Of a stretch of 64,000 bases of DNA, positions 12,009 through 13,850 are shown one piece after another. A program made the position numbers and the translations under genes. Source of the DNA: Gaiellales bacterium (GTDB taxonomy: Bacteria; Actinomycetota; Thermoleophilia; BMS3ABIN01); assembly GCA_003599855.1 (NCBI GenBank), contig QZKG01000006.1:1-64000 (forward strand), read 5' to 3'. Every line of letters begins with the position of its first letter. The first letter of the stretch is position 1. A model generated the notes under the pieces. That model had not been told where the DNA came from. It saw only the letters and a list, made by a program, of their open reading frames with translations, and made no database searches.

Positions 12009-12024
12009 TGGCACGCTACTTGCA
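12009..12024 (+). promoter_or_regulatory. Sigma-54 (-24/-12) promoter
   Basis: TGGCACG (12009-12015), four bases, then TTGCA (12020-12024) matches the sigma-54 consensus, with exactly 10 bp between the invariant GG and GC. It lies 135 bp upstream of the secreted Ig-like protein gene. The leader of about 120 nt contains a possible GGTTA...TAACC stem near 12081-12097. Confidence 0.7.
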
Positions 12025-12158: not shown

Positions 12159-13622
12159 ATGAGCAGGAAATCGATGACCCGGACCATGATCCTGATAGCG
12201 TTGCTGTCCCTGGCGGGCCTGCTGACGCAATCAGTGGCGCTTGGTGTCGTGATAGACACCACCGCGCCGACCGTCAGCAGCGTCACGCCCGCTGACGGCA
12301 GCAAGATCTACACCAATGGAAGCTCGACCATCTATTACCAGATGGGCAACTCGACACCGCTGACCATCAGGGCGACCTACGCGGATGAGCCCGGCGGCAG
12401 CGGCGTCGACCCCGCCAGCGTCATGGTGCATCTGGACGGCAGCAACATGCTCTATGACTGCCCGATCCAGACGGACACCGAGGTCGCCTGCAACGCCACG
12501 GCGGCGGACCTCTTCCCGGGTACGCACCCGGTGGACATCTACGTCGGCGACCTGGAAGGCAACATGACCATGCACCGCACCTGGGTCACCGTCGTGCAGG
12601 ACAGCACCGCCCCGACCTACGCGAACCTGTCCATCCCCGACGGCAGCACCATCTATACTTCCCAGCTGAACAGCGCCGGCATCAATGACATGAGCGCCCT
12701 GCGCTTCGACTACGACATCGTCGACGGGACGGACTCCAGCGGCGTCGTGCCCATGAGCCACGTGAACGAGTCGGTGCCGCCGGGAGTGGCAGGAGCCATG
12801 ATCATGAACTCCTCCTGCGTCAAGACCCCCGACGCCAATAACACGACCCACTACTCGTGCCAGGTGAACCGGGCCAAGCTCCTGCACCTGGGCGACAACA
12901 CCCTGGCGATCCTGCTCAAGGACCGGGTGGGCAACCTTAGCAGCGACTACACCAACCTCGCCACCCACAAGCACTACACGGTGGTGGACGACGTGGCCCC
13001 GGTCGTGAGCAGCCTGGCCGCAGATGCGTCGACGATCTCCGCTAGCTTCAATGATCGGCAGCCGACCGGCGCCCTCTCCACCCAGCTGGCGGCGGGCATC
13101 GATAGCGGCACCGCCGTGGTCACGGTCGACGGCAATCCCGTCGGCGGCTGCTCGGCGAGCGCGTCCGGCGTCAGCTGCGCGACGCCTTCGGGCCTCGCCC
13201 CGGGCGTGCATGCTGTCGCGGTTTCCGTGAACGACAACGCCGGCAACACCGGTACTGCGAGCGGCACGCTGACCATCGATCCGCCGCCCTGCGTCCCCGG
13301 CAAGCCGTCTCTGACCCTGGCGAAGGGCTCCCCCTCCTGGGCCAGCATGGACGACTATGCCGCCCGGGAGTTGTCGCTGCCGCTCACAGTCAGCAATGTC
13401 GGCGCCGACGAAGCGTCAGCCGTCGCCATAACCGGTGCTACCAACACCAACGGTGTCGTCCTTATCACACCAACTGATATCCAGCTCGGCGCCATCGCCG
13501 GCGGCTCCGCGGCCGTGACGACTGTCAAGTTCTCCGTACCGCACGGGGTAGCTGCGTTCACCGCTTCGTTCACCGCCAGTGCGTCCGACGGCTGCGGCAA
13601 CAGCTACGGCTACCCGGTCTGA
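12159..13622 (+). CDS. Secreted protein with Ig-like repeats
   Basis: The 487-residue product has a signal peptide (about 1-28) and then three Ig-like/bacterial 'DTTAPTVSS' repeats that begin near residues 33, 150 and 280. These are followed by a cysteine-containing linker and a C-terminal module shared with the phosphoesterase at 6845-9322. Paired cysteines occur within single repeats, as expected of an exported protein. GGAGGAT stands before the ATG. It is the first gene after a sigma-54 promoter and ends 12 bp before the 50-residue peptide gene, so the two are probably co-transcribed. Adhesive or structural role is inference. Confidence 0.8.
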   Translation: MSRKSMTRTMILIALLSLAGLLTQSVALGVVIDTTAPTVSSVTPADGSKIYTNGSSTIYYQMGNSTPLTIRATYADEPGGSGVDPASVMVHLDGSNMLYDCPIQTDTEVACNATAADLFPGTHPVDIYVGDLEGNMTMHRTWVTVVQDSTAPTYANLSIPDGSTIYTSQLNSAGINDMSALRFDYDIVDGTDSSGVVPMSHVNESVPPGVAGAMIMNSSCVKTPDANNTTHYSCQVNRAKLLHLGDNTLAILLKDRVGNLSSDYTNLATHKHYTVVDDVAPVVSSLAADASTISASFNDRQPTGALSTQLAAGIDSGTAVVTVDGNPVGGCSASASGVSCATPSGLAPGVHAVAVSVNDNAGNTGTASGTLTIDPPPCVPGKPSLTLAKGSPSWASMDDYAARELSLPLTVSNVGADEASAVAITGATNTNGVVLITPTDIQLGAIAGGSAAVTTVKFSVPHGVAAFTASFTASASDGCGNSYGYPV

Positions 13623-13634
13623 GAGGGGATACTG

Positions 13635-13787
13635 ATGAGATCAGCAGACAGGAACCGTGGCATGACAGGCAGCAAGAGGGAGCCGTACGAGAAGCCGTGC
13701 CTGATAAAACACACCGGCCTCAGGGAGATCACCCTCGAATGCCCGGACTGGCAGTGTAGCGTGGCGGTCCCGCCGCCTCCTGCCTGA
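13635..13787 (+). CDS. Small peptide, RiPP-precursor-like
   Basis: The gene encodes 50 residues, with GAGGGG just before the ATG and the preceding stop 12 bp away. Residues 18-35 (from PYEKPCLIKH to GLREIT) resemble the YxxPxL...G...T leader recognised by PqqD/RRE-type proteins in lasso and related peptide systems, with one extra residue before the Gly. The remaining tail, LECPDWQCSVAVPPPPA, carries two Cys and a proline run and would be the core. A strong terminator follows. No maturation enzyme, RRE protein or protease is adjacent, so the RiPP reading rests on the leader alone. Confidence 0.55.
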   Translation: MRSADRNRGMTGSKREPYEKPCLIKHTGLREITLECPDWQCSVAVPPPPA

Positions 13788-13814: not shown

Positions 13815-13850
13815 AAAGCGGCCCCTGCCATGGCAGGGGCCGCTTTTCTC
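13815..13850 (+). terminator. Rho-independent terminator
   Basis: AAAGCGGCCCCTGCCA (13815-13830) and its exact complement (13831-13846) form a 16-bp perfect palindrome ending in TTT. It follows the small peptide gene and can also serve the minus-strand gene at 13871. Confidence 0.85.

Follow-up and report, generated by a model that had tools for sequence, protein, structure and literature searches.

A multicopy RiPP-like peptide gene family linked to secreted Ig-like proteins in a Gaiellales bacterium

RiPP precursors and their enzymes are normally encoded together in one cluster, and the products are read as antibiotics or signals. In the 64,000-nt stretch of Gaiellales DNA analysed here (the window), a 50-codon reading frame follows a gene for a secreted Ig-like protein, and a sequence-only reading had taken it for an orphan RiPP-like precursor. 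Is this frame a gene, what kind of peptide would it encode, and by which enzymes could that peptide be matured? The features that bear on these questions are collected in Table 1.

Table 1. Features of the window around the peptide gene
Feature	Position	Strand	Basis
Second CTD-bearing secreted protein, metallophosphoesterase/beta-helix	6845–9322	-	CTD match, E = 3e-25; Pfam Metallophos and NosD
Promoter element of sigma-54 type, TGGCACGCTACTTGC, ahead of the CTD-protein and peptide genes	12009–12023	+	Exact match
Secreted Ig-like protein with signal peptide and family-wide C-terminal domain	12159–13622	+	Big_13/TIG matches; CTD match
CTD, lineage-specific C-terminal Ig-like beta-sandwich domain	13305–13616	+	36-row alignment; AlphaFold2 model
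RiPP-type precursor peptide ORF as first read (50 aa)	13635–13787	+	ORF check; paralogs in the same genome
Peptide with family-supported start, MTGSKREPYEKPCLIKHTGLREITLECPDWQCSVAVPPPPA	13662–13787	+	Family alignment; start analysis
Putative leader and core	about 13662–13736 and about 13737–13784	+	Core boundary from the lasso rule, Thr at -2
Probable intrinsic terminator behind the peptide gene, a perfect palindrome of 16 bp, AAAGCGGCCCCTGCCATGGCAGGGGCCGCTTT	13815–13846	.	Sequence inspection

The peptide gene and its family

The frame encodes MRSADRNRGMTGSKREPYEKPCLIKHTGLREITLECPDWQCSVAVPPPPA, and both its sequence and its coordinates check out. Judged by its homologs it is a real gene, as had been claimed in spite of its shortness: full-length paralogs in the same genome match it far above chance (E = 1e-16 to 1e-11), it is kept in 18 relatives, and the peptide is under purifying selection (median pN/pS of 0.31 across the family). 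The start first assigned to it, with a ribosome site of its own, fared less well. Since the start codons of the family mostly lie 8–11 codons ahead of a conserved Tyr, behind AGGAG-like sites, the true start is more probably the ATG at 13662 (41 aa), 27 nt inside the ATG at 13635; the stop codon of the Ig-like protein gene lies 12 nt before the latter. The word orphan was wrong, because the peptide is multicopy both here and in relatives. The genome holds seven full copies (full-length paralogs are on contigs C55, C9, C14, C6, C34 and C2), one contig-edge fragment (C38) and three divergent copies (C9 and C29), and all 18 same-family genomes searched contain 4–12 matches each; those relatives that have names are Thermoleophilia MAGs.

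Outside the family, about 80 other genomes of the class yielded only one marginal match (E = 0.0048). Of 397 genomes drawn from the phylum, only those of the same family had the full pattern, and five genomes of another family (f12) matched the leader only; the roughly 390 phylum genomes outside the family lacked the core. A match from Oscillospiraceae (L045) was judged a chance frame, and a contig taken for an out-of-family case (L044) was rejected as such, as it shares the fusA–recJ locus of the family. No description of the peptide family was found in the literature.

The family pattern, YxKPxLVKHxNLKxITFEC-xx-W-x-CSVxVPxxP, comprises a leader motif (Y-x-[KR]-P-x-L...N-L-x-x-[ILV]-T) and a core motif (E-C-x-x-W-x-C-S-[VI]-x-V-P-x-x-P). 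Near-invariant are the Y, the P, the T, both Cys, the Ser and the VP motif; at the leader positions Y occurs in 90, P in 94, L in 89 and T in 91 of 94 sequences. The leader resembles the lasso type and is RiPP-like, in line with the RRE-type pattern noticed earlier: YxxPxL and the Thr are kept family-wide, and the matches to NCBIfam models are weak (lasso_leader_L3 in three of 28 family members, best E = 4e-4, with none for the window peptide; lasso_cyano in two of 28).

Regulatory elements and the linked secreted proteins

The sigma-54 promoter and the inverted repeat that had been pointed out on either side of the gene are both present. The former is an exact site about 135 nt ahead of the Ig-like gene, and would thus serve the Ig-like gene and the peptide gene together. 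Only 0.10 matches to the pattern are expected in the window; the genome contains eight such sites against none for a reversed control pattern, and rpoN was found on contig C22. Sigma-54 sites do not generally accompany CTD–peptide units. The repeat behind the peptide stop codon is directly followed by TCTC, and was left unflagged by the terminator scanner because its Ts sit inside the stem; most paralogs in the genome are likewise followed by a hairpin (read by eye).

The Ig-like protein ends in a domain (CTD) of about 104 aa, which is nearly always C-terminal; the secreted proteins that carry it are otherwise unrelated (ethylbenzene-dehydrogenase-like, rhodanese, phosphoesterase and Ig-like). 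It has 30 matches in this genome and 11–39 in each family genome, and none in 41 genomes of the class outside the family. AlphaFold2 predicts a complete Ig-like sandwich of seven strands (pLDDT 96), and the idea that the peptide completes an unfinished CTD fold by donating a strand is therefore unsupported. No Pfam family was matched above its gathering cut-off (the window CTD scored 16.1 bits against CARDB, cut-off 22.7, so that it was not assigned to CARDB/DUF11), and the PDB yielded nothing by sequence and only generic Ig-like folds by structure comparison, none at E below 0.001. In joining many unrelated secreted proteins to one shared C-terminal region per lineage, the CTD is like the PEP-CTERM/exosortase, GlyGly-CTERM/rhombosortase and MYXO-CTERM systems; unlike their sorting signals, it is a folded Ig-like domain without a C-terminal transmembrane tail, and no sortase was identified. 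No peptide gene was recognised behind the second CTD gene of the window, and most of the roughly 30 CTD matches in the genome have none adjacent.

Seen from the peptide genes, the Ig-like/CTD neighbour is the rule and not an accident. Among 93 copies that are strong, distinct and preceded by at least 400 bp of sequence, 65 are preceded at 18–99 nt by the end of a same-strand CTD gene, with a binomial P below 1e-60 even if the background were 5%, and three have a CTD gene just downstream; this lends support to the earlier suggestion of a partnership with the upstream protein. Some copies without a CTD neighbour sit at conserved loci, in the intergenic regions of a nucleotide-binding-protein gene and hemC or of fusA and recJ (names by eye), so the product presumably acts in trans. 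Such tight linkage would also be expected if the peptide were an unprocessed small protein that serves the CTD proteins as structural or regulatory partner and whose N-terminus merely looks like a RiPP leader, and conservation over the whole length, which RiPP cores of diverse function seldom show, speaks for the same. Nevertheless, we regard this as unlikely: the peptide has no evident signal peptide and would, unprocessed, stay in the cytoplasm, whereas the CTD proteins are secreted; the leader resembles that of lasso peptides; the f12 peptides attach the same leader to unrelated cores, one set of them beside an NTP_transf_5-like gene (by eye); and in 11 relatives HPrK is linked to the peptide gene, while the B1/B2 enzymes described below are conserved in the same clade.

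Eleven relatives share a longer unit, in which the CTD gene is followed by the peptide, a lipoprotein-like gene and an HPrK-like kinase. In a twelfth the unit is cut off behind the lipoprotein gene, and in the present genome a lipoprotein–HPrK pair lies at a contig edge. The product of the lipoprotein-like gene is called a putative lipoprotein from a lipobox-like motif noticed in its sequence. Its C-terminus, W-D-S-G-G-I-E-I-V-V-P-P-x-P or a close variant, looks much like the W-Q-C-S-V-T-V-P-P-P-P tail of the peptide. When 9,899 distinct reading-frame stretches were compared with the tail pattern, only the peptides (50) and these lipoproteins (11) matched, counts that are descriptive because the pattern was devised after both tails were known.

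Candidate maturation enzymes

No modifying enzyme adjoins the peptide gene, and it had been suggested that maturation takes place through enzymes encoded elsewhere. A PqqD RRE, a B2 protease and HPrK-like kinases are indeed present in the genome, unlinked to the peptide gene; the joint absence of such enzymes and of a conserved leader, named beforehand as counter-evidence, was thus not observed. Contig C8 carries in a row genes for an HPrK-like kinase, a PqqD RRE (B1), a lasso-type B2 protease, DUF2079 and NTP_transf_5, and its B2, spotted by translation and then by family search, lies above the NCBIfam lasso_biosyn_B2 cut-off. B2 occurs in 16 of the 19 family genomes and in a minority of others. 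In those 16 its context is nearly always HPrK–PqqD–B2–DUF2079 (G012 has B2 and DUF2079 without adjacent HPrK or PqqD), and all of 17 B2 homologs keep the putative catalytic Cys and His. A CTD gene is close to the operon in about half, and no peptide gene was found beside it in the genomes with B2. In G002, G005 and G007 (97–100% complete), with 8, 11 and 7 peptide matches, the single PqqD match of each genome falls within the HPrK–PqqD–B2 operon. Peptides without a B2 match were found in G008, G016 and G018, of which two are 69% and 78% complete and G016 is 92% complete.

The peptides are probably processed by a conserved enzyme set encoded elsewhere on the chromosome. The co-occurrence of peptide and enzymes lies within one clade and is confounded by phylogeny, and since this genome encodes three PqqD-like proteins, the partner of its own peptide is not unique. 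No dedicated exporter was identified.

A lone PqqD-like protein on contig C22 (L051, 3671–3997, minus strand) lies about 150 nt behind a sigma-54-type site of its own, and a nearby C_GCAxxG_C_C redox protein has such a site too; a weak peptide match beside this PqqD, within an opposite-strand gene, was dropped as chance. Contig C50 (L053, 7975–11047) carries a RiPP cluster consisting of PqqD, radical SAM/SPASM, two near-identical precursors (..LANCKCVSPQIDGPPSGWCSGVFQVSCSVSGS) and an HPrK-like kinase. Its radical-SAM/PqqD pair is a less likely maturase for the present peptides, as it has two adjacent precursors of its own, and a second PqqD is absent from G002, G005 and G007.

Nature and role of the product

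In known systems, lasso precursors are phosphorylated on Ser by HPrK homologs and receive hexoses from a nucleotidyltransferase (PMC8498205), and B1 of Bradymonas helps in Ser phosphorylation as well as in cleavage by B2 (PMC10368454). The B1/B2/HPrK set, the YxxPxL leader and a Ser target (putative here) are common to the present system, paeninodin, pseudomycoidin and Bradymonas BsfA (PMC8498205, PMC10368454). As in phosphorylated lasso systems, a nucleotidyltransferase gene lies by the operon of this genome, and Thr would stand at -2 (on the assumed cleavage site), where BsfA has Ile; unlike in those peptides, the operon has no C protein, the core has no Asp/Glu at positions 7–9, and the precursor lies outside the cluster. 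A true lasso peptide, whose macrolactam would be closed by an Asn-synthetase-like C protein encoded elsewhere, is suggested by the leader, by B1 and B2 and by two full Asn-synthetase proteins on contig C25, but it is so improbable that we rejected it. Cleavage after Thr-x would give a core ECPDWQCSV..., aligned family-wide as ECPxWQCSVxV, with at best Glu 1 and Asp 4 and no suitable acceptor; the C25 enzymes are linked to neither PqqD nor a peptide gene; no such cyclase is found in the B1/B2 operon; and G001 (98% complete, with 10 peptide matches and B1/B2/HPrK) has only weak ATP-PPase-type Asn_synthase matches and no full-length Asn synthetase, which argues against a lasso product.

Also close in kind are the linear polyphosphorylated peptides (LPP) of Bacillota, which have a YxxP leader, no cyclase and a different peptidase (PMC13381572). 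Both systems have a YxxPx[VL] leader, a discrete RRE, an HprK-like kinase and a relation to lasso peptides, and both lack a macrolactam cyclase; however, B2 cysteine protease and DUF2079 recur here, whereas LPP systems use an SpI-type peptidase and an MsbA transporter (PMC13381572), neither of which was seen by eye in the C8 operon region. The present system also differs in its phylum, in that few genomes have NTP_transf_5 beside the operon, and in that the precursors are dispersed, tied to surface-protein genes and provided with a conserved Cys pair and a Pro tail.

The best reading is that the gene encodes a precursor, interchangeable with several others, of a linear, lineage-specific RiPP with a lasso-type leader. 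We consider it likely that this product is LPP/paeninodin-like minus the cyclase, probably Ser-phosphorylated and disulfide-bonded, and acts with the CTD surface proteins. The B1 RRE would capture the leader, an HPrK-like kinase (either the one encoded with B1 and B2 or its paralog linked to the peptide) would phosphorylate the invariant Ser after the second Cys, and the B2 cysteine protease would cut after Thr-x and so set free roughly 16 residues (about ECPDWQCSVAVPPPPA); the two core Cys would probably form a disulfide, and no macrolactam would be made. The product may then be exported and act outside the cell with the CTD proteins and the membrane lipoprotein of similar tail, most likely to display, assemble or modify the former. 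More tentatively, the processed, phosphorylated peptide could dock on, or be attached to, the co-expressed CTD proteins and be mimicked by the lipoprotein tail, a possible but doubtful scheme of lineage-specific surface display or anchoring with lasso-type enzymes. RiPPs often serve conflict or signalling, and the copies at the hemC and recJ loci have no CTD neighbour, so that linkage might reflect shared regulation only; yet a secreted antimicrobial or signal seems rather improbable, as cores are almost identical across genera and in up to 12 copies, unlike those of diversifying bacteriocins, no recurrent immunity or transporter gene was seen, and the core tail resembles that of the lipoprotein in the same gene unit.

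Prochlorosin cores are hypervariable, whereas the present cores are nearly constant. One maturation system serving many genome-scattered precursors is common to both, and the enzymes differ, prochlorosin systems using the lanthipeptide synthetase ProcM (PMC10783134). Near-constant precursors, scattered mostly behind surface-protein genes and sharing one unlinked enzyme operon, suggest a housekeeping or cell-surface role and link lasso-type enzymes to surface proteins. Cluster-based mining would miss such a precursor class, and with it the purpose of cyclase-free B1/B2/HPrK systems becomes testable.

Other tails are also found behind such leaders. Two tandem divergent peptides on contig C29 (L054, 7814–8370, minus strand), near a molybdopterin oxidoreductase gene, combine the same leader with Ser/Asp-rich tails (..WNCSLGDCGSDSSSDSDSSSDSSS), and a divergent copy on C9 (L056, 8479–8697, minus strand) has a His/Gly-rich tail (WQCSVDTHPNQHGQGHSSHGNGHGYGHCKVR) that possibly binds metal. 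The f12 genomes contain short, often tandem peptides (L188–L191) in which the leader YEKPELxEHENLxxVTKG precedes unrelated short cores; the NTP_transf_5-like gene noted above is near those of L189.
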